NCBI GenBank assembly: GCA_002868905.1 | Contig: PKUA01000048.1 | Coordinates: forward strand, 1-48,793 | Reading direction: 5' to 3' | Origin: Desulfuromonas sp. | Lineage (GTDB): Bacteria; Desulfobacterota; Desulfuromonadia; Desulfuromonadales; Geothermobacteraceae | Length of the DNA stretch: 48,793 nucleotides | Shown here: positions 38,312 to 48,793 of the stretch, piece by piece | How the letters are laid out: each line of letters starts with the position of its first letter | Numbering within the stretch: position 1 is the stretch's first letter | Translations under genes and position numbers: made by a program | The notes under the pieces: model-generated | The model's input: the letters and a program-made list of their open reading frames with translations, nothing else | Told to the model about the DNA's origin: nothing | Database searches by the model: none

Positions 38312-40029
38312 TTCATCGAACCCGGAACATTCTCCTGCTGATTATCTGCCTTGTCCTGATCTCTGCCGGAACAGGTTTTGCCGCCAAAGTAACGGCATCT
38401 GCCGAACGCGACCGTGTCGTCGATGGAGAGAGCTTTCAGCTCGATCTCAAGGTTGAAGGGGGCGCCGAGGGGGACGCGAACCTGGAGGCACTCGAAGCAG
38501 AATTTGAAATCCTTGGAAGGTCTCAAAGTTCTCAGATGAAATTCGTCAATGGCGATTTCAGTCGTTCCTTCGTCCTGTCGTTGACCTTGATGCCTCGCAA
38601 TATCGGCGTCCGGCAGGTTCCATCGATTTGTTTCGGGCAGGATTGCAGCCAGCCACTGAAAATCACCGTGCTTCCCGCCGGAAGCAATACCGGAAACCGT
38701 GGCGCGCAGGACGACCTGCTGCTTGAAGTCGAGGTGGAGCCGGAAACGGTTTATGTTCAGGGGCAGATTCTGCTGACGGTGACGTTGCTGAGCCGGATTG
38801 ACCTGTTGCAGGCAGGTTTGAGCGAGCCTCAGGTTGAGGGGGTTGAGACGGTCGTGCAACGCCTGGGTGATGATCGCCAAACCCAGGTCATGCGGAATGG
38901 TTTCCGTTACCAGGGGATCGAGCGTCGCTATGCCCTGTTCCCCCAGCAGAGTGGTGCCCTGCGCATTGCACCATTTCAATTCGACGGGCAGGTGGCGGAT
39001 GGTAGGCAAAGGCGTTTCGACCTGTTTCCTCGGGGAGGAAGACAGGTCAGGCGACATTCAAGGCCGATCGATGTCAGGGTCGATCCGGCTCCCGATTCGG
39101 CTGCAAACCGTAGTTGGCTCCCGGCGCTTGAACTGGAACTGGCCGATGATTGGCAAGGGAAGACCCAGGAGATGACGGTTGGCGAACCGCTCACCAGAAC
39201 CCTGTCGCTCCGTGCGACTGGGCTCCCTTCCGCCCAGCTTCCCCAGGTCGACTTTGATGTGCCGTCTCAATTCAAGACGTACCCGGATCAGCCCTTGAGA
39301 AAAGACTTCAGCTCCGATGCGGGCATTGTCGGATCTCTGGAACAGAAACTGGCACTGGTCCCGACGCATCCGGGAGAGTATGAATTGCCGGAGATCAGGA
39401 TTGATTGGTGGGATGTTTCAAGCCGGCGATGGCGTACCGTAACCGCTGCTTCGGTTTCGGTCGAGGTCAGGGCGGTAGCAGAAACCAAGCCATCTTCCTC
39501 AGAACCGGTTGCCGATGAACCGGTCGAATTTGCGGAAAAGTCCCAGGTCGGTGAGACGGGGACTCCGCAGACGATGAAACCAGTTACCCGTGATCCCGGA
39601 GTCTGGCCGTGGCTTACCCTGTTGGTTGGGCTTGGTTGGCTCGGTACGTTGTTTCTCCTGCTCAAGGCGCGACGGGGCAATAGCCCGGTTGAGCCGAGCG
39701 ATGATGACGCTTATGTCCAAGAAAAACAGGCCTATCGTGATTTGCAACAGGTGCTGAAGAATGGGAACCCGCAACGTATCCGAGCCGCGTTGCAAAAATA
39801 TATAAAAACAACGACGACCGGTGGAGAGAATCTGAGCCTGGAACAATTTGCTGCAAGGGCCGGGGATCCTCTGCGGCACGAGCTGGAAACCCTCGATGCT
39901 TCTCTCTACGGCAAAGAAAAACCTGTCATGGACCCACGGCGCCTCGAGCGTGCCATAGAGCAGTGGCGGACAACAGGAGCCAGGGAGCGTACGCGTGATG
40001 AGTTGCCGGGTTTATATCCGCCGAAGTGA
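38305..40029 (+). CDS. batD: BatD-like oxygen tolerance protein
   Basis: The 574-aa protein has a signal peptide (LLLIICLVLISAGTGFA). Ig-like beta domains follow, with the BatD opening KVTASAERDRVVDGESFQLDL and FRYQGIERRYALFPQQSGALRI. A membrane helix lies near 435-455 (WLTLLVGLGWLGTLFLLL) with a cytoplasmic helical tail. Most of the protein would lie in the periplasm. ATG 38305 overlaps the batB stop and follows GAAGGAGAG. It is the last gene of the moxR-bat operon. Confidence 0.88.
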   Translation: MVVHRTRNILLLIICLVLISAGTGFAAKVTASAERDRVVDGESFQLDLKVEGGAEGDANLEALEAEFEILGRSQSSQMKFVNGDFSRSFVLSLTLMPRNIGVRQVPSICFGQDCSQPLKITVLPAGSNTGNRGAQDDLLLEVEVEPETVYVQGQILLTVTLLSRIDLLQAGLSEPQVEGVETVVQRLGDDRQTQVMRNGFRYQGIERRYALFPQQSGALRIAPFQFDGQVADGRQRRFDLFPRGGRQVRRHSRPIDVRVDPAPDSAANRSWLPALELELADDWQGKTQEMTVGEPLTRTLSLRATGLPSAQLPQVDFDVPSQFKTYPDQPLRKDFSSDAGIVGSLEQKLALVPTHPGEYELPEIRIDWWDVSSRRWRTVTAASVSVEVRAVAETKPSSSEPVADEPVEFAEKSQVGETGTPQTMKPVTRDPGVWPWLTLLVGLGWLGTLFLLLKARRGNSPVEPSDDDAYVQEKQAYRDLQQVLKNGNPQRIRAALQKYIKTTTTGGENLSLEQFAARAGDPLRHELETLDASLYGKEKPVMDPRRLERAIEQWRTTGARERTRDELPGLYPPK

Positions 40030-40079
40030 TATACTCTCCAATATAAAGGTGGTTGAAGGTGAACTGTCGGAGTTGAAAT

Positions 40080-40907
40080 ATGCTCGGTGCCATCATCGGT
40101 GATTATGTCGGGTCGCGTTTCGAATTTTCTCCGCACAAGAGTGTTGATTTTCCCCTTGTTACCGAACAATCTCACTGGACCGACGATACCGTCCACACGG
40201 TCGCCCTGGCCGAACATCTGCTGACGGGAGCGCCGTACGCCGCATTGCTCAAACGCTACTTTCGTGATTTCCCCGATGCCGGATATGGTGGACGATTCAC
40301 CGTCTGGGCCGCGTCCGACGACCTGACCCCCTACAACTCCTTCGGGAACGGGTCGGCCATGAGGGTCAGTCCGGTCGGCTGGTTCTTCGCTGACCTTGAA
40401 ACGGTTCTGCTGGAAGCTGAGAAGAGCGCCGCGGTTACGCATGATCATCCCGAAGGCATCCGCGGGGCGCAGGCGGTTGCCGGAGCCGTCTGGATGGCCC
40501 GTCAAGGTGCCGACAAGATGGAAATCCGGACTTTCATTGCCGATCGATTCGGATACGACCTTGACCGCCCCCTGGAGGCAATCCGCCCGGGATACAGATT
40601 CGATGTTACCTGTCAGGGTTCGGTCCCGGAAGCGATTATCTGTTTTCTTGAAGCGACTTCCTACGAAAATTCGATACGTAACGCCGTTTCACTCGGGGGA
40701 GATGCAGATACCCAAGCCTGTATCGCCGGGTCCATCGCCGAAGCGTATTATCGGAACATCCCAAGCGTCCTCCTGAAGACGGTCAGGGGGTCTCTTCCAG
40801 GGCCATTCTTAGATGTCATCAATGCGTTTCACAGAATAAAGATGTCCGGTGAAAATGGTTTTCCCAACGATGAGAAAGGGTTTGAATCGACCGAACGAAT
40901 CTGGTAA
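40080..40907 (+). CDS. ADP-ribosylglycohydrolase family protein
   Basis: The 275-aa enzyme belongs to the ARH/DraG family, which removes ADP-ribose from proteins or small molecules using two metal ions. The metal-binding motifs are complete: HWTDDTVHTVALAE (about 33-45), NGSAMRVSPVG (about 90) and SLGGDADTQACIAGSIAEAYY (about 215). No ADP-ribosyltransferase (DraT or other) or nitrogenase gene is nearby, so the target is unknown. It begins 50 bp after batD and may be read through from that operon. A promoter for the next gene lies in its 3' end. Confidence 0.9.
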   Translation: MLGAIIGDYVGSRFEFSPHKSVDFPLVTEQSHWTDDTVHTVALAEHLLTGAPYAALLKRYFRDFPDAGYGGRFTVWAASDDLTPYNSFGNGSAMRVSPVGWFFADLETVLLEAEKSAAVTHDHPEGIRGAQAVAGAVWMARQGADKMEIRTFIADRFGYDLDRPLEAIRPGYRFDVTCQGSVPEAIICFLEATSYENSIRNAVSLGGDADTQACIAGSIAEAYYRNIPSVLLKTVRGSLPGPFLDVINAFHRIKMSGENGFPNDEKGFESTERIW

Positions 40908-40910
40908 AAT
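40882..40910 (+). promoter_or_regulatory. Probable promoter of the small membrane protein gene
   Basis: TTGAAT (40882-40887) and TAAAAT (40905-40910) are 17 bp apart. The sequence overlaps the end of the ADP-ribosylglycohydrolase gene. The ribosome-binding site AGGAGATG follows at 40925. Confidence 0.5.
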
Positions 40911-40935
40911 ATCGTTATAAAATAGGAGATGAAAG

Positions 40936-41298
40936 ATGATTCGCCTATTGTGTCTCGCATTTTTCGGTTTTGCCATGGCCATCATTTCGATGATGCGTCT
41001 GCTGGGTGACGTTGAGCCAGGCTCGCTGGTCAAACTGAAACGTATTTTCGGGCGAAAGGTCGGACTCGCGGTTCATTTTTCCGGTCACGTGGCGCTACCA
41101 CTACTGGTCGGGGTCATTTTTACTTGCGAATCGATCCTTGCCTTTTCGCCTCAGGTGTTTGACCGGCGTCAGTTCCCGATACAGGGGACCGTGCGTCAGA
41201 TGGTTGTAGAGGCAAGCCATAAGTATCATCGTTCTCTCGCCATGCTTGAAGCCGGCTACCTGATGACCGACCTTCATTACCCCCCTCTCTGCCCCTGA
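40936..41298 (+). CDS. Small membrane protein, unknown family
   Basis: A 120-aa protein that I do not recognise. It has a hydrophobic N-terminal segment (about 3-21, LLCLAFFGFAMAIISMMRLL) and a second one (about 48-71, VHFSGHVALPLLVGVIFTCESILAF), with a polar C-terminal half. The ribosome-binding site TAGGAGATGAAAG is strong and it has its own likely promoter. There are no enzyme motifs. It lies between the ADP-ribosylglycohydrolase and htpG genes. A stable hairpin (CGGGG-TTCGT-CCCCG, 41304-41318) follows five bases after the stop. Confidence 0.6.
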   Translation: MIRLLCLAFFGFAMAIISMMRLLGDVEPGSLVKLKRIFGRKVGLAVHFSGHVALPLLVGVIFTCESILAFSPQVFDRRQFPIQGTVRQMVVEASHKYHRSLAMLEAGYLMTDLHYPPLCP

Positions 41299-41320
41299 TC
41301 GAACGGGGTTCGTCCCCGAC

Positions 41321-41349
41321 TTGACAATCCCTCACAGGATGATTACCTT
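41321..41349 (+). promoter_or_regulatory. Possible htpG promoter
   Basis: A perfect TTGACA (41321-41326) lies 17 bp from a weak TACCTT (41344-41349). No sigma-32 type CCCCAT box is seen. The predicted start (about 41356) falls in the inverted repeat below. Confidence 0.4.
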
Positions 41350-41353
41350 GCCG

Positions 41354-41378
41354 AGCGTCCAAGGCCGGTTTGGACGCT
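41354..41378. repeat. 9-bp inverted repeat upstream of htpG
   Basis: AGCGTCCAA (41354-41362) and TTGGACGCT (41370-41378) are perfect inverse copies around GGCCGGT. The repeat sits at the predicted transcription start, 57 bp before the htpG ATG. It does not match the CIRCE element. It could be an operator or a 5' stem-loop of the mRNA. Confidence 0.6.
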
Positions 41379-41434
41379 GGTACCACTAATTCTATCAATC
41401 CGTAGCCTTATTATATTTTCAAGGAGATGAACCC

Positions 41435-43294
41435 ATGAGTGATCAGGTCGAGCTGGAACAGGGAAACATATCGATCCACACGGAAAATATTTTTCCGATT
41501 ATCAAAAAATGGCTCTACAGTGAGCATGACATATTTCTTCGCGAACTCGTGTCCAATGCCGTTGACGCAATCCATAAACTGCAGCATGTAAACCTGGTCG
41601 AAGGATTACAGTTGTCAGAGGACTACGGGGTCGATATTACCGTCGATGAGAAGGCGAAGACCCTGACCGTCAAAGATAACGGGGTCGGGATGACGGCCGA
41701 CGAAGTCCGCAAATACATCAACCAGATCGCCTTTTCTTCGGCCGAGGAATTTGTCGAAAAATTCAAGGACCTCGAGGATAAGAATCAGATTATTGGCCAC
41801 TTCGGTCTCGGCTTTTACTCGGCATTCATGGTCGCAAGCCAGGTCGAAATCCGAACTCTCTCCTACCAGGAAGGGGCTGCTGCGGTTCACTGGAAGTGCA
41901 ACGGATCAACCGACTACCAGATCGGCCCGTGTGACAAGGCCGAGCGTGGAACTGAAATTATCCTGCATTTGAGCAATGAGGAGGAGCAGTACCTCAAGCC
42001 GTCTCGGGTGCGCGAAGTGTTGAAGCGCTTCTGCAACTTTCTCCCGCTTCCGATTCGTTTGGCCGGTGACCAGATCAACGACAGCGACCCGTTGTGGTGC
42101 AAGACGCCGAGCGAGGTGACCGACGAGGAATACCAGGAGTTTTACCGGAAGCTTTATCCTCTTGCTGTTGAGCCGCTCTTCTGGATTCATCTGAATATCG
42201 ACTTCCCTTTCAACCTGAAAGGGATCGTCTATTTCCCTAAGCTGACCACTGAATTCGATCTCACAAAAAGCCATATCAAGTTGTTTTGCAACCAGGTTTT
42301 CGTGTCGGACAATTGCCAGGAGATGATCCCTGAATTTCTCGTTCCTTTGCAGGGATGCCTCGATGCACCCGATTTACCATTGAATGTTTCGCGCAGCTAT
42401 TTGCAGAACGAACCCCAGGTGAGGAAGATTCGCGAGGTTCTTGCCGGTAAGGTCGCCGCAAAACTGGGTGAAATTGCCAAAGGGGATGCAGAGGAGTATG
42501 CCCGGATATGGGACGACATCCACACCTTTATCAAATACGGGGTGTTGCAGGACGAGAAGTTTTATAAGAAGACCAAGGACCACTTGCTGTTTCGTACGAC
42601 CGACGCGAGCCAGCATACGACCTTGAAAGACTACCTGGAGCGGGGGAAGGAAAAATATGCCGACCAGGTCTACTATGCCAGCGACGAAAGCGCTCAGGCA
42701 AGTTACCTGCGCATGTTCCGTAACCAGGACATCGAAGTGCTGCTTCTCGATGCTCCGATCGACAGTCACCTGATTTCGTTTCTTGAACACCAGGAAGAAA
42801 ACCTTAAATTCCTCCGTATCGATTCCGAGGCGACCGACAACCTGCTTCAGGGAGAGTCAGGTCCGGATCTCGTCACCGGTGAAGATGGCAAGAGCAGTAA
42901 CGAGAGAATTGCCGACCTGTTCAAGGGAGAGCTTGACCAGGACGGTCTGACCATCCGGGTTGATGCCCTCAAGGATGGGAGTGTGCCGGCTGTCATTCTC
43001 CTTGACGAAGGAATGCGTCGCTTCCAGGAGATGACCCGTATGCTCGGTAAGGAGGCGAAGGAGATCGGCGAGCACACCTTGTTGGTGAACGCAGCCTGTC
43101 CGACGATCAAAAACCTTCTTTCCCTGAATGAGAGCGGGGAGACCTCCGCTGTGAGCTCGGTCGTTCATCAGGTTTACGACCTTGCCAGATTGGCCCAGGG
43201 AGGTTTCGACCAGGCGAGTTGGGAGGCCTTTATCGGCCGCAGCCAGGACCTTTTGCAGCTCGCCAGTCGTCCTGGCAGCGAAAATACAGAATAA
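41435..43294 (+). CDS. htpG: Chaperone HtpG (Hsp90)
   Basis: The 619-aa dimeric ATP-dependent chaperone has the GHKL ATPase domain: IFLRELVSNAVDAIHKLQ (about 29-46), DNGVGMTADEV and GHFGLGFYSAFMVA. The middle domain has KGIVYFPK, LFCNQVFVSDNCQEMIPEFL and LPLNVSRSYLQNE with the conserved Arg. The C-terminal dimer domain ends without MEEVD, as in bacteria. The N-terminal lid is normal. AAGGAGATGAACCC precedes the ATG. It is a single-gene unit, converging on fxsA. Confidence 0.96.
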   Translation: MSDQVELEQGNISIHTENIFPIIKKWLYSEHDIFLRELVSNAVDAIHKLQHVNLVEGLQLSEDYGVDITVDEKAKTLTVKDNGVGMTADEVRKYINQIAFSSAEEFVEKFKDLEDKNQIIGHFGLGFYSAFMVASQVEIRTLSYQEGAAAVHWKCNGSTDYQIGPCDKAERGTEIILHLSNEEEQYLKPSRVREVLKRFCNFLPLPIRLAGDQINDSDPLWCKTPSEVTDEEYQEFYRKLYPLAVEPLFWIHLNIDFPFNLKGIVYFPKLTTEFDLTKSHIKLFCNQVFVSDNCQEMIPEFLVPLQGCLDAPDLPLNVSRSYLQNEPQVRKIREVLAGKVAAKLGEIAKGDAEEYARIWDDIHTFIKYGVLQDEKFYKKTKDHLLFRTTDASQHTTLKDYLERGKEKYADQVYYASDESAQASYLRMFRNQDIEVLLLDAPIDSHLISFLEHQEENLKFLRIDSEATDNLLQGESGPDLVTGEDGKSSNERIADLFKGELDQDGLTIRVDALKDGSVPAVILLDEGMRRFQEMTRMLGKEAKEIGEHTLLVNAACPTIKNLLSLNESGETSAVSSVVHQVYDLARLAQGGFDQASWEAFIGRSQDLLQLASRPGSENTE

Positions 43295-43337
43295 ACCTAC
43301 CAGGTGTTTGCGGCTGTTTGATGCCAAAGAGGCGGTT

Positions 43338-43730
43338 TTACCGTTTGTGAATGGTAATCGTTCCTGATCGGAGATGCTGCTCGAGCCAGATCCGCAACCA
43401 CCCCTTGATGATCCGGCGAGTCGTCGGTACCAGCAGGAAAAATCCGCAAAGATCGGTCCAGAAGCCGGGGGTCAACAACACCAGACCCCCGGCGAGGATC
43501 ATAGCCCCGTCCAGGAGTTGTTCGGCGGGAAGACGACCGCCATTCATTTCCTCCTGGATCTCCCGTAGTACATCAATCCCCTGGGTCCGTAGGAGTAAGG
43601 TTCCTGCGATGCCGGTCAGTACGACCAGGGCAATGGTGGCCCACACCCCTAAAAGACCGCCGATCTGAATCAGGGTGTAGATTTCCAGAATTGGGACAAA
43701 AATCAATATAAAAAAGATCTTTATAAACAT
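43338..43730 (-). CDS. fxsA: FxsA family membrane protein
   Basis: The 130-aa protein matches FxsA: FVPILEIYTLIQIGGLLG, a second hydrophobic stretch, LRTQGIDVLREIQEEMNGG, and the diagnostic GLVLLTPGFWTDLCGFFLLVP near residue 85. It has about four membrane segments. E. coli FxsA can relieve phage T7 exclusion when overexpressed; its normal role is not known. The gene converges with htpG (43-bp gap) and is preceded by the palindrome-rich region that contains the DnaA-like boxes. Confidence 0.92.
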   Translation of the reverse strand: MFIKIFFILIFVPILEIYTLIQIGGLLGVWATIALVVLTGIAGTLLLRTQGIDVLREIQEEMNGGRLPAEQLLDGAMILAGGLVLLTPGFWTDLCGFFLLVPTTRRIIKGWLRIWLEQHLRSGTITIHKR

Positions 43731-43751
43731 CGTAGCACAATTACGCCCGTA

Positions 43752-43763
43752 TTCAGATCTGAA
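43752..43763. repeat. 12-bp palindrome in the fxsA leader
   Basis: TTCAGATCTGAA is a perfect palindrome 21 bp upstream of the fxsA start. A second palindrome, GGGCGCCC (43766-43773), lies two bases further out. Either could be a regulator site. Confidence 0.5.
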
Positions 43764-43819
43764 ATGGGCGCCCTCTAATTAACGCCGGGTGGGTTTGTAC
43801 CCGACATGGTAACTTACTG

Positions 43820-43847
43820 AAAATACATAGAAATTAGTGTGGTTAAA
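43820..43847 (-). promoter_or_regulatory. Possible fxsA promoter
   Basis: Read on the minus strand, TTTAAC (43847-43842) and TATTTT (43825-43820) are 16 bp apart, giving a leader of about 80 bases. A DnaA-like 9-mer (TTAACCACA) overlaps the -35. Confidence 0.3.
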
Positions 43848-43940
43848 AATTAGGCACTTTGTTGGATGTTGTTTTTTTGGGCCGAATGACATTTCTGTAC
43901 ACAGGGTTTTGCACACCTTGTCCACAAAAAGTGTGGACAA
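43838..43940. promoter_or_regulatory. Cluster of DnaA-box-like 9-mers
   Basis: Two identical boxes TTGTCCACA face each other at 43918-43926 (plus) and 43932-43940 (minus), five bases apart. TTTTGCACA (43907-43915) fits the TTWTNCACA consensus. CTGTACACA (43895-43903) and, on the minus strand, TTAACCACA (43838-43846) are one mismatch from looser consensus forms. The flank toward fxsA is A+T-rich. TTGTCCACA is a known DnaA-box form in high-G+C bacteria. No dnaA or dnaN gene is nearby. Confidence 0.5.
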
Positions 43941-43976
43941 CAAAAAAAAGTCCCGAGATCACGGCCAGTTCCCGAT

Positions 43977-44783
43977 TTATTTTGAGAAGTCATCTTTTTT
44001 GGCACGGTTCCAGAATACTTCCTGTCCCTCTACGAGAAGATCGTTGATGTCCCGATTTTGTTCGCTGGCGCGTCGTTCAATCTCCTCAAATGTCTCAGTA
44101 AAGCGTCGGTTGGCCTGTCTGAGGGAGTCTTCCGCCGAAATGCCGGAAGCATGTGCCAGGCTGACAATCGCCAGGAGGAGATTTCCGATTTGCAGCTGTA
44201 GGGAGTCCCTGTCCGGTTCTGTGTCTGCTTGGTCAATCTCCGTCAATTGCTCAGCAATCTCCCTGCGGGATTGATATTGGTTTTCCAGGGGAAGACCGCA
44301 GCGAGACGCACGTACCATTAGTTTCTGGGTATGTTGCAGGGCGGGCAGACTCTTCGGAATGCCCGCGAGTGCGGATGCGGAATGGTTCCTCTTTTTTCTT
44401 TCGGAGCGCTTGATGGCATCCCATTGTCTATGGAGGTCGGCTTCATCAGAGAATGCAGCATCTGCAAAAACGTGGGGGTGGCGTCGAACCAGTTTGTCGC
44501 TGATAGCGTTGGCGACGTCCGCAGGATCGAAGCAGCCCCGCTCCGAAAAGATCGCTGACTGGAAAACAACCTGCAACAGCAAATCGCCAAGTTCGTCGCG
44601 GATTTGATCTGAGTCTCCCTCGTCAATCGCCTCCAATAGCTCGTAAGTCTCTTCGACGATATAGTCCTTGAGCGTTTCGGGAGTCTGTTCAGCATCCCAG
44701 GGGCAGCCATCGGGCCCCCGCAATTGCTTCATGATATCGCAGAGTCTGGAAAATGCTTTGCCGGATTCATCAGATTGCTTCAT
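43977..44783 (-). CDS. mazG: MazG nucleoside triphosphate pyrophosphohydrolase
   Basis: The 268-aa protein has two tandem MazG domains, like the 263-aa E. coli enzyme. The first has GCPWDAEQTPETLKDYIVEE, the metal-binding EETYELLEAI and DELGDLLLQVVFQS. The second (about 165-235) has LTEID..., QIGNLLLAIVSLAHASG and RRFTETFEEIE. It cleaves NTPs to NMPs and pyrophosphate; in E. coli it also lowers ppGpp. A promoter is visible upstream (minus strand). It shares direction with fxsA but is 246 bp away. Confidence 0.94.
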   Translation of the reverse strand: MKQSDESGKAFSRLCDIMKQLRGPDGCPWDAEQTPETLKDYIVEETYELLEAIDEGDSDQIRDELGDLLLQVVFQSAIFSERGCFDPADVANAISDKLVRRHPHVFADAAFSDEADLHRQWDAIKRSERKKRNHSASALAGIPKSLPALQHTQKLMVRASRCGLPLENQYQSRREIAEQLTEIDQADTEPDRDSLQLQIGNLLLAIVSLAHASGISAEDSLRQANRRFTETFEEIERRASEQNRDINDLLVEGQEVFWNRAKKDDFSK

Positions 44784-44846
44784 GGGGATTCCCGGGGAAG
44801 AAATTCATGTCGTATGCCGGAGCCGAACCTGGATGCTTCGGATGCA

Positions 44847-44875
44847 ATTGTAGCATGAGGAGAGGGTTAAGTTAA
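44847..44875 (-). promoter_or_regulatory. Probable mazG promoter
   Basis: On the minus strand, TTAACT (44875-44870) and TACAAT (44852-44847) are 17 bp apart. The start near 44840 leaves a leader of about 57 bases to the mazG ATG. Confidence 0.5.
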
Positions 44876-45019
44876 TAACCTGGAAAAAGGTTGTGAACGG
44901 TCTGATTGAAGTGGCGGAAGAATAGAGTGGAAAATGAAAATTACATTTGAAATTAATCACTTGCAAATTATTGGAGAATGGGTTAATAGAAGACCTCCGG
45001 TCGGGGTGGACAGAATGTC

Positions 45020-45047
45020 TTGACAGGAATTTTCAAGGAATTATACT
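45020..45047 (+). promoter_or_regulatory. Promoter of the DUF177-rpmF-plsX-fab operon
   Basis: A perfect TTGACA (45020-45025) lies 16 bp from TATACT (45042-45047, five of six). The start near 45054 is 19 bases before the GTG of the DUF177 gene. No FapR- or FabR-like palindrome was noticed. Confidence 0.65.
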
Positions 45048-45072
45048 ACCGGATTCCATCTACGGGTATATC

Positions 45073-45615
45073 GTGCTTGTTGTAAATATAGAACAGATCA
45101 GGGACCGCGGTATTTCCCTGGCCGGAGATGTCCCCGTTGATCAACTTCCGGAGCTGGGAAAACTTGATCCCCGCGATGGTCTGTTTCTCGGTCCGGTAAA
45201 GGTTGATTTGCGGCTGGAAGTCGCCGGTGGGATGATTCTGCTTCGCGGTCACTTGGGTGCTGCAGTTGAGCAACCATGCAGTCGTTGTTTGAACGATTTT
45301 ATTCTCACGCTTGACGTTGAAGTCAGCCTGGCGTTCGAACAACGTAACGATGAAAACATGGAGGTGACGGAAGAGGACCTTGAGTTGAGTGCCGAGGAGC
45401 TCGGTGTGGTCCGGTTCGATGGTGACACGCTCAATCTGGCTGACGCTATTGGCGAACAGCTGATGCTCGCTTTGCCATATCGTCCACTCTGCAGCGAACA
45501 GTGTGAAGGTCTTTGCAGCCGTTGCGGTGCCGATTTAAACCAGGGGCCGTGCGGGTGTCAACCTGATGATAAAGAGAACCCATTTGCCGTACTCAAGAAC
45601 CTGCGCATCGACTGA
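45073..45615 (+). CDS. DUF177 (YceD) protein
   Basis: The 180-aa protein has the DUF177 opening MLVVNIEQIRDRGISLAGDV, then EQPCSRCLNDFILTLDVEVS near residue 78. The C-terminal CEGLCSRCGADLNQGPCGC holds a second cysteine group. YceD is encoded next to rpmF across bacteria; in plants and E. coli the family is linked to 23S rRNA accumulation. GTG 45073 is the start because the promoter lies just upstream and family members begin with this segment; an open frame back to 44947 would place the promoter inside the gene. rpmF follows after 49 bp. Confidence 0.9.
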   Translation: MLVVNIEQIRDRGISLAGDVPVDQLPELGKLDPRDGLFLGPVKVDLRLEVAGGMILLRGHLGAAVEQPCSRCLNDFILTLDVEVSLAFEQRNDENMEVTEEDLELSAEELGVVRFDGDTLNLADAIGEQLMLALPYRPLCSEQCEGLCSRCGADLNQGPCGCQPDDKENPFAVLKNLRID

Positions 45616-45664
45616 GCAGTTCACGGGACGGCATTTATAACGTTAGACGAAGGAGCCGAAAAAA

Positions 45665-45844
45665 ATGGCAGTTCCAAAGAAAAAGACTTCAAAATCCAAG
45701 CGCGATATGCGCCGTTCCCATGACTCCCTGAATGTCCCGGGGATTTCCACCTGTCCCCAATGCAAGGAACCGAAGCTTCCACATCGCGTTTGCCCGAGCT
45801 GTGGCAGTTATAAAGGTAAGGACGTCGTAGTCAAAGAAGACTGA
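45665..45844 (+). CDS. rpmF: 50S ribosomal protein L32
   Basis: The 59-aa protein begins [20 protein letters not shown], the L32 signature. A zinc ribbon of two CxxC pairs (CPQC and CPSC, ten residues between) marks the zinc-binding form. Basic residues dominate the N-terminus, which contacts rRNA. AAGGAGCCG upstream of ATG 45665 is a good ribosome-binding site. The rpmF-plsX pairing is widely conserved and may tie ribosome supply to lipid synthesis. Confidence 0.97.
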
Positions 45845-45854
45845 GACAGATCCC

Positions 45855-46916
45855 TTGCACCAGTCGATTACAGTAGCAGTTGACGCCATGGGGAGCGACA
45901 ACGCCCCCGTTGTGGAAGTCGAGGGAGCGGTTCAGGCCGCCAGGCAGCACAACATTCCGATCATACTGGTCGGAGATGAAGAGCGTCTGGAGCGGGAGCT
46001 GAGCACCCATTCCATTGAAGGCCTCGATATCAGCATCCACCATGCCAGTGAAATCGTCGGTATGCACGATTCCGCGTCGGATGCCGTGCGCAAAAAGAAG
46101 AACTCTTCCATAAGGGTCGCCTTCGAGCTCGTCAAGGAAGGGACCGCAAACGCCGTTGTCAGTGCCGGAAACTCCGGGGCGACCATGGCTGCTGGTAAGT
46201 TCGTCTTGAAGAGGATCAGGGGAATCGACAGGCCCGCCATCGCAACGGTGATGCCCAACCTGGTTGACCATACCCTGGTTCTCGATGCCGGCGGAAATGT
46301 TGATTGTAAGCCTCAGCATCTGGCCCAATTCGCCTTGATGGGCGCGGTTTATGCGAAGTGCATCATGGGTAAGTCATCGCCTCGCGTCGGCCTGCTTTCA
46401 AATGGCGAAGAAGAGAGCAAGGGGAACGAACAGACACGGCAGACCCATCTGGCTCTTAAAGAGTCTGACTTGAATTATGTCGGTAATGTCGAGGGGCGTG
46501 ATATCTACAATGGTCACGCCGATGTCGTCGTCTGTGATGGTTTTGTCGGTAACGTGGTCTTAAAGACTTCCGAAGGGCTGGCCGAGGCGATTGCGACCAT
46601 GCTCCGTCGGGAGATCGAAGGAAGCCTGCTCGCAAAAATAGGTTTCCTGCTCGCCCGGCCGGCTTTTTCCAGGTTTAAACGGAAAATCGATTATGCAGAA
46701 GTCGGCGGTGCGCCGTTGCTCGGTATCCAGGGTACTGGAATGATCTGCCACGGCGGGTCAAATCCCAAGGCGCTGATGAACGCCATTCGTTCAGCTCATG
46801 ACTATGTTGCAAAAGGGGTTAACACTCAACTCGCTGCGCAACTCGAGCCTTTCAAGGAAGTCGTCGGTAGTTGTCTGACCGGTTCGGGGGAGGACCGACA
46901 GACACAAGCCGGGTAA
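45855..46916 (+). CDS. plsX: Phosphate acyltransferase PlsX
   Basis: The 353-aa enzyme makes acyl-phosphate from acyl-ACP for PlsY, the first step of phospholipid synthesis. It has [18 protein letters not shown] at the start, [14 protein letters not shown] near residue 100, [19 protein letters not shown] and [16 protein letters not shown], then GAPLLGIQG. The start is TTG 45855, ten bases after rpmF, with a modest site (TGAGACAG). Length is normal. A peripheral membrane location is known for the family. Confidence 0.95.
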
Positions 46917-46944
46917 ACTCTGGCATTGAATGGGGAGTCGAATC

Positions 46945-47928
46945 TTGAAAACACGTGCACGCATTATCGGTACAGGGTCATATGTACCGGAAAAAATTCT
47001 GACCAACGCTGACCTGGAAAAATTTGTTGATACATCCGACGAATGGATTCGGACTCGAACCGGCATTTGTCAACGGCACATAGCTGCTGAAGATGAGCAG
47101 ACCTCAGATCTCGCCTCCAAGGCCGCTCAAGCGGCACTTGATATGGCAGGTGTTACAGCAGAAGAAATTGATTTACTGATTGTCGGGACCATCACAGGGG
47201 ACTGCCCCTGGCCGGCAACGGCTTGTCTGGTCCAGGAAAAGATCGGGGCCAAGAACGCCTGGGCCTACGACATCAGTGCTGCCTGCAGCGGTTTTGTCTA
47301 CTCCCTGGACGCGGCAACCCGGCAGATTGAAGCAGGTGCCATTCAAAAGGCGCTGGTGATCGGCGCCGAAATTCTGACCCGCTTTATCGATTGGACCGAC
47401 CGGAACACCTGCGTCCTCTTCGGTGATGCTGCCGGGGCTGTGGTCCTCGAAGCGCAGGAGACCGAGAGTGGAGTCCTTTCCACCCACCTCCATTCCGACG
47501 GAAGTTACTACGAACTGCTCTACCAGCCCGGATTCGGGTCCGTCCATCCTCCGAGTGAAGAAGGACTGAAGAACAGAGTTCCCTATCTCAGCATGCAGGG
47601 CAACGAGGTTTTCAAGGTTGCAGTTCGATCCCTCTATAACGTTGCTGTTGAATGCCTCGAAGCGAACAACATGTCCGTTGCAGACCTCGACCTTTTTATC
47701 CCGCACCAGGCCAATATCCGGATTCTCGATGCGGCGGCGAAACGACTCGGTTTGAGTGAAGAGCAGACTTATATCAACGTGGAACGTTTAGGGAACACCT
47801 CTGCTGCCACCATTCCGGTTGCCCTGGATGAGGCGAATCGTGCTGGTCGGATCAAGGAGGGCGACCTGTTGATGTTTGATGCGTTCGGCGGTGGGTTTAC
47901 CTGGGGGGCAGCCCTTGTTCGCTGGTAA
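46945..47928 (+). CDS. fabH: 3-oxoacyl-ACP synthase III
   Basis: The 327-aa KAS III enzyme condenses acetyl-CoA with malonyl-ACP to start fatty-acid chains. The catalytic triad is visible: Cys114 in DISAACSGFVYSL, His in FIPHQANIRI and Asn in RLGNTSAATIPV. RTRTGICQRH and the C-terminal FDAFGGGFTWGAALVRW are typical. I prefer TTG 46945 with GGGGAG eight bases upstream, starting MKTRARIIGTGSYVPE; ATG 46930 would add five residues but has no ribosome-binding site. It follows plsX by 28 bp. Confidence 0.95.
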   Translation: MKTRARIIGTGSYVPEKILTNADLEKFVDTSDEWIRTRTGICQRHIAAEDEQTSDLASKAAQAALDMAGVTAEEIDLLIVGTITGDCPWPATACLVQEKIGAKNAWAYDISAACSGFVYSLDAATRQIEAGAIQKALVIGAEILTRFIDWTDRNTCVLFGDAAGAVVLEAQETESGVLSTHLHSDGSYYELLYQPGFGSVHPPSEEGLKNRVPYLSMQGNEVFKVAVRSLYNVAVECLEANNMSVADLDLFIPHQANIRILDAAAKRLGLSEEQTYINVERLGNTSAATIPVALDEANRAGRIKEGDLLMFDAFGGGFTWGAALVRW

Positions 47929-47968
47929 AAGGTTCTTTTTTTAGATTATTTTTGACGAAGGTATTTGC

Positions 47969-48793
47969 ATGTTAGCTTTTGTTTTTCCGGGACAGGGCTC
48001 CCAGGCCGCAGGGATGGGAAAAGACCTGGCCGAACAATTTCCGGTTGCTCGTCAGACCTTTGAGGCCGCCAATGATGCCCTCGGGGAAGACCTGGCAGCC
48101 CTCTGCTTCAATGGTCCCGATGAGGACCTGAAGTTGACCGCCAATACCCAGCCGGCCATTTTGACGCACAGCGTTGCTGCCTGGCGGGTGCTCTCGCAGG
48201 AAACCGATCTGAAGCCTGATTTCGTCGCCGGCCACTCGCTTGGCGAATATTCGGCTTTGGTCTGCAGCGGTGCGCTGACGTTTGAAGATGCCGTGCGCAC
48301 CGTGCGCCAACGGGGTACATTCATGCAGGAGGCCGTACCGGTTGGTACCGGAGCCATGGCAGCTATCCTTGGCCTTGAGGTTGAACCGCTTCGTGACATT
48401 TGTGCAGAGGCGTCTCAGGGCGAAGTCGTTTCGCCGGCAAACTTTAACAGCCCGGGGCAGGTGGTGATCGCCGGTTCTGCGTCAGCCGTTGAGCGGGCGA
48501 TTGAACTCGCCAAGGCGAAGGGGGCAAAGCGGGCGTTGCCCCTCCCGGTCAGCGCCCCGTTCCATTGCGCTTTGATGCAGCCGGCTGCAGATCGGCTGAA
48601 GGATGTTCTTGCCCAGGTCGGAATTGGTTCGCTGCAGGTACCGGTGGTAACCAACGTTGAGGCTCAGGCGAACCGTGAGTCGGAGCGAGTTGCCCCGTTG
48701 CTGGTGGAGCAGGTTTGCGCCCCGGTTCGTTGGGATGAATCTGTCCGGTATATGGTTGATCAGGGGGTTGACCGCTTTATTGAAATCGGGCCC
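47969..48793 (+). CDS. fabD: Malonyl-CoA:ACP transacylase (3' truncated)
   Basis: The first 275 residues of FabD are present and the frame runs off the window; the family is about 310 aa. FVFPGQGSQAAGMGKDLAE opens the protein. The nucleophile Ser is in GHSLGEYSALVCSG (about 92). NFNSPGQVVIAG and the catalytic His of PVSAPFHCALMQPA (about 200) are complete. It loads malonyl onto ACP for FabH. GAAGG lies 9 bases before ATG 47969. In this lineage fabG, acpP and fabF usually follow outside the window. Confidence 0.95.
   Translation, partial: MLAFVFPGQGSQAAGMGKDLAEQFPVARQTFEAANDALGEDLAALCFNGPDEDLKLTANTQPAILTHSVAAWRVLSQETDLKPDFVAGHSLGEYSALVCSGALTFEDAVRTVRQRGTFMQEAVPVGTGAMAAILGLEVEPLRDICAEASQGEVVSPANFNSPGQVVIAGSASAVERAIELAKAKGAKRALPLPVSAPFHCALMQPAADRLKDVLAQVGIGSLQVPVVTNVEAQANRESERVAPLLVEQVCAPVRWDESVRYMVDQGVDRFIEIGP

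Follow-up and report, generated by a model that had tools for sequence, protein, structure and literature searches.

Among the described systems closest to the locus reported here are the Escherichia coli DnaA-recharging sites DARS1, in the bioD-uvrB gap, and DARS2, in the rppH-mutH gap (NC_000913). In published accounts, DARS boxes I and II are described as acting head to head (PMC8682772), DARS2 as needing IHF and Fis (PMC8682772, PMC4245941, PMC5742627), and DARS1 as acting in vitro without additional factors (PMC5742627). DnaA boxes are also reported to overlap the Fis sites of DARS2 (PMC8682772), and a 2014 paper describes conservation of the DARS2 core together with Fis as specific to those gammaproteobacteria that are relatives of E. 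coli (PMC4245941).

Here, we describe a 131-bp non-coding element of a Desulfuromonas sp. that reads on the minus strand at positions 43810-43940 of the window, by which we mean the whole analysed stretch of 48,793 nucleotides. Its architecture is rigid, its conservation is deep, it goes its own way from the gene downstream, and it lies away from the origin. The element very probably binds DnaA and exerts some form of control, and we give a probability of about one half to the reading that this chromosomal locus would work like E. coli DARS2. Judging from sequence, we infer that the element would be bound by DnaA, IHF, and one further protein and that the outcome would be recharging of DnaA rather than hydrolysis or titration.

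Box array and accessory motifs of the element

The original prediction had placed four DnaA-box-like 9-mers within 46 bp (43895-43940), and we found all of them there. With box I (TTGTCCACA; 43932-43940, minus strand) taken as position 0, box II is a second copy of TTGTCCACA on the plus strand at +14 (43918-43926). Boxes I and II thus form a 9-bp perfect inverted repeat around a 5-bp spacer, agreeing with the earlier description of two identical boxes in opposite orientation, five bases apart. Box III (TTTTGCACA; 43907-43915, plus strand) begins at +25 in the same orientation as box II, and box IV (CTGTACACA, with one mismatch; 43895-43903, plus strand) begins at +37, with distances between box starts of 11 bp from II to III and 12 bp from III to IV.

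Single boxes are ordinary in this DNA. TTWTNCACA matched twice in the window, where 1.9 matches were expected, and TTGTCCACA had 16 matches genome-wide against 19 for its reversed control. In contrast, among 500 first-order Markov windows, four boxes (≤1 mismatch) fell within 46 bp in one, and neither three exact boxes in 46 bp nor an inverted box pair with a 5-bp gap appeared in any. The box clustering is therefore real and beyond chance, bearing out the view that a single box would be unexceptional here and this density would not.

Next to box IV is a 38-bp spacer (43857-43894), which is nearly constant in length among relatives but not in sequence, and beyond it lies a Fis-like motif, TGCCTAATTTTTAACCA (TGC-N12-CA; 43840-43856, minus strand), which starts at +84 and contains a full match to GNNYAWWWWWTRNNC. 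An IHF-like motif, TTTCAGTAAGTTA (43810-43822, minus strand), follows at +118, 17 bp past TGC-N12-CA. The consensus sequences used, as given in the sources cited, were GnnYAnnnnnTRnnC for Fis (PMC4245941) and WATCAANNNNTTR for IHF (PMC4585315). The 9-mer TTAACCACA (43838-43846, minus strand), originally counted as a fifth box, overlaps the conserved Fis-like motif, and the extent originally given to the cluster (43838-43940) takes in the boxes but misses the IHF-like motif.

We searched the genome for candidate binding proteins. One protein each reached the cut-off for IHF alpha and for IHF beta, in both cases with one of the two NCBI models used, and a second IHF-beta-like protein scored just below the cut-off. 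A stand-alone Fis gene was not found among the 20 PF02954 matches of this genome, 19 of which lie in frames of at least 343 amino acids and one of which is cut by a contig end. This truncated frame, on contig C40, had at first looked like a stand-alone Fis.

Conservation and spread

We searched for FxsA in 39 genomes, including this one, and obtained a match in 25. When the DNA upstream of fxsA was aligned among relatives, much as the original prediction had proposed for the mazG-fxsA gap, the same array was present in 23 of these 25 genomes; the two loci without it (L015 and L017, from G010 and G024) were set aside before aligning. All 23 aligned pieces measure 141-143 bp, even though conservation does not extend to the sequence of the spacer. 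Scored against TT[ATG][TA]NCACA with ≤1 mismatch, boxes I and II are each recognised in 20/23 elements, box III in 17/23, and box IV in 18/23, box III being degenerate (>1 mismatch) in the remaining six. The Fis-like motif starts at +84 in 21 elements and at +85 in two; TGC-N12-CA is exact in 20/23 and TG-N13-CA in all 23, and the Fis consensus GNNYANNNNNTRNNC fits at a fixed place in 21/23, with an all-A/T centre in 19/23. A DnaA-box-like 9-mer (≤1 mismatch) overlaps the Fis-like motif in 11/23. The relaxed IHF motif, which is a loose one, occurs at the aligned place in 12/23 elements, and three of its columns, C-N6-TT, are invariant in 23/23.

From these 23 fxsA-upstream elements we built a model, R1, that uses sequence only. 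In the 39-genome search, with at most 82 candidates scored per genome, R1 matched with E values of 7.6e-12 to 3.4e-22 in ten genomes not used in the model (G007, G009, G010, G012, G016, G024, G027, G029, G031, and G038). Matches in G005, G006, G026, and G037 had E values of 2.6e-7 to 1e-5, and G018 and G025 gave no match below E 0.004 in this search. Calibration of R1 was judged only by matches of E 0.1-1, of which we counted 40 by hand against about 35 expected over the 39 genomes. With stricter filters, R1 matched at E ≤ 1e-5 in 140 of the 146 genomes of a class sample (the exceptions being G025, G094, G037, G079, G093, and G129), the opposite of the loss of boxes in close relatives that had been named as a ground for doubt. 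A phylum sample gave matches at this threshold in 65/148 genomes and none in the other 83; five of the 65 are this genome or members of its order or class, and among the others the count is 60/143.

To look further afield, we searched 84,980 species genomes with an exact three-box pattern (34 bp). At least 118 stretches were returned, 80 of them listed and chosen by the first three boxes only, not by the accessory motifs. Among these 80 listed of at least 118 loci, 41 have TGC-N12-CA at +84 to +86, over a background of 0.06 at each other offset, and 17 have the IHF-like motif at +118 to +120, likewise over a background of 0.06; a mazG match lies within 280 bp in 22. At least three of the 80 (L205, L210, and L269) are not independent, since they correspond to G011, G015, and G028, whose elements built R1. 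Titles among the listed loci include Geobacter, Geomonas, Desulfuromonadales, Thermodesulfobacteriota, Syntrophorhabdaceae, Aminicenantes, Nitrospinae, Manganitrophus, and Schekmanbacteria. Some listed loci belong to Firmicutes or other groups, which argues against specificity of the triad, and a dnaA match lies within 300 bp in 8 of the 80 listed (of at least 118), indicating that the triad alone also stands at probable origins and is not specific. The loci near dnaA are L203, L206, L211, L253, L257, L261, L265, and L270.

R1 itself was run on 76 of the 80 listed loci and on two E. coli stretches; it did not find the DARS2 core and matched DARS1 weakly, at 12.3 bits. Separately, we observed a variant second motif, roughly TTTGCACAAG followed by GTCA, in four loci titled Aminicenantes (L222, L234, L242, and L267), and a dense DnaA-box region on a Thermosporothrix hazakensis contig (L223:352-1651), with more than 12 R1 matches on both strands in 1.3 kb.

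Many genomes carry more than one R1 match. Second copies in G033, G017, G028, and G013 lie 0.9-1.3 kb from a trigger-factor gene (loci L140, L150, L148, and L152), a second copy in G008 lies about 2 kb from clpP (L138), and other extra copies in G017 and G033 adjoin gltX (L142 and L149). These extra copies have a good inverted pair and a weak third box. The copies near trigger-factor, clpP, and gltX genes possibly represent a second class of site. The genome under study also has a second, weak R1 match on contig C72 (972-1077; locus L153, from 971 onward; E 0.0024), with four box-like sites and TGC-N12-CA at +86.

Chromosomal position, neighbouring genes, and rival readings

In this genome, dnaA is on another contig, C38, and the gap upstream of it contains one TTATCCACA and one TTTTCCACA. 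To either side of the element, over the full 83 kb of its contig, GC skew stays positive. In G036, from 20 sampled stretches, skew turns at dnaA and again from positive to negative between 1.53 and 1.70 Mb, a terminus-like turn, with the element placed at 1.73 Mb; G023 shows loose agreement with G036, and skew in G017 was too noisy for placing the terminus. For 21 complete genomes, several with rounded lengths and all related and so not independent, we let the position of dnaA represent oriC. On average, the best element in these genomes is 0.74 of the half-chromosome away from dnaA; it lies beyond 0.5 in 16/21 and, in the nine complete genomes of this order, at 0.73-0.94. Best copies are oriented against the fork in 18/21 genomes, but weaker extra copies are in only 7/18, indicating that orientation follows no general rule.

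Good boxes, an IHF-like motif, and a location away from dnaA would also suit a datA-like site for DnaA titration or DnaA-ATP hydrolysis, where boxes and IHF bind DnaA off the origin and lower the active pool. E. coli datA has DnaA boxes and an IHF site outside oriC, as the element does, but the K-12 site has no inverted pair at +14, and this geometry gives the titration site of the original prediction less support. Additionally, terminus-proximal copies would be few per cell and would double late, which would likely make this a weak place for a sink. We regard a datA-like function as less likely than recharging.

The element lies directly 3' of mazG (43977-44783, minus strand), with fxsA (43338-43730, minus strand) on its far side. 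We searched for MazG in 53 genomes and found a match in 50; in 41 of the 50, compared by eye and with the C52 copy counted for G013, mazG is followed within 300 bp downstream by an R1 match on its own strand, and in the other nine it is not (G005, G006, G010, G024, G025, G026, G037, G075, and G172). Between the end of mazG and box I (window 43941-43976), a TTTCA is weakly conserved in relatives. The far-side gene is fxsA in much of this order and is replaced in other orders by murJ or by a gene that encodes a methylguanine-methyltransferase DNA-binding domain. In seven genomes (G041, G045, G055, G070, G095, G124, and G137; leaving aside G065, G066, and G084), mazG and the far-side gene are convergent.

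These neighbours bear on the reading that DnaA, with IHF and a Fis-like regulator, controls fxsA or mazG through the element as its promoter or operator. DnaA is described as acting also as a transcription regulator (PMC11317965), the element is upstream of a controllable gene, fxsA, in this order, and the distance from box I to the fxsA start is near-constant (193-215 bp in 20/23 loci with a recognised box I) and otherwise unexplained. However, the element sits 3' of mazG, and G010 and G024 have fxsA without the element before it and carry the element on another contig. Eight of the ten genomes outside the model, all except G010 and G024, have no FxsA match and still carry the element (E ≤ 5.7e-13), and in the seven genomes with convergent neighbours it is upstream of neither, making control of a neighbouring promoter unlikely. 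By this distribution the element is independent of the downstream gene, and we rejected as improbable the control of fxsA or mazG that had been proposed. A transcription terminator was also rejected, as none of the three terminator-like sites found falls at the element, and so was an RNA family, as no Rfam match reached gathering score in 40000-48793.

A 9-bp perfect inverted repeat might alternatively be the landing site of another protein that binds such repeats, with its likeness to DnaA boxes coincidental, but the variable 9-mer positions in the 23 loci follow DnaA-box degeneracy and boxes III and IV stand in tandem, and we hold this reading to be very improbable. Finally, a secondary or former replication origin, to which the A+T-rich DNA adjoining the box array and the listed triads beside dnaA in other groups might point, is the most improbable reading, as the original prediction had also leaned, because dnaA is elsewhere, skew is positive on both sides with no turn at the element, the G036 element is near a terminus-like turn, and R1 matches beside dnaA are weak (E 0.002-0.9 in G001, G002, G008, G032, G033, and G041).

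A candidate DnaA-recharging site among known systems

Of the options in the original prediction, a DnaA-reactivating site is the best supported, by the geometry of boxes I and II, which is that of DARS1 and DARS2 and is absent from datA and oriC, and by accessory motifs at fixed distances. In such a site, ADP-DnaA would bind head to head on the inverted pair of boxes I and II, and the DnaA oligomer would extend over boxes III and IV. IHF and another protein at TGC-N12-CA may then bend the neighbouring DNA, giving a compact complex that would loosen ADP, so that the freed DnaA could rebind ATP for the next initiation at oriC.

A broader reading, which we advance tentatively, is that DnaA recharging of the DARS type may be a widespread system rather than a gammaproteobacterial invention. 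It would consist of a rigid element that combines inverted DnaA boxes, TGC-N12-CA for a Fis-like factor, and a site for IHF, and that occurs throughout the class, in part of the phylum, and in records titled Aminicenantes, Nitrospinae, Manganitrophus, and Schekmanbacteria. The element of this order is terminus-proximal and 3' of mazG; being duplicated late there, it could act back on the initiation that follows. If true, a conserved DARS-like site in a further class and phylum would allow a test of whether dedicated DNA sites serve many bacteria in cycling DnaA between its ADP and ATP forms, and would point to a new DNA-binding partner at TGC-N12-CA. Our literature search, in which most subscription journals were outside coverage so that an earlier description is possible, found no such site described outside gammaproteobacteria. 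Vibrio cholerae is a gammaproteobacterium. Its DARS-like sequences, reported outside E. coli, are described as sharing their loci with those of E. coli (PMC6090056).

Compared with known sites, the element is unlike E. coli K-12 oriC, which has no inverted pair at +14. DnaA-box clusters that are not origins also occur in Bacillus subtilis and Streptomyces. DARS1 has the same geometry of boxes I and II, with box III at +26, not +25. DARS2 also has box III at +26, and due to this difference in spacing we do not call the element a DARS but only probably DARS-like in its working. It differs from DARS2 as well in its fourth box, its neighbouring genes, the outcome of the Fis gene search among the PF02954 matches, and the order of its parts, which is core, Fis-like, IHF-like rather than core, IHF, Fis. 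DnaA boxes overlie the Fis sites in DARS2, as a box-like 9-mer does the Fis-like motif in the 11 elements noted above. The element and DARS2 share the inverted boxes I and II at +14 with a 5-bp spacer, a third box oriented like box II, matches to the Fis consensus and, with one mismatch, to that of IHF, which start <150 bp from box I, and a non-coding location away from oriC.
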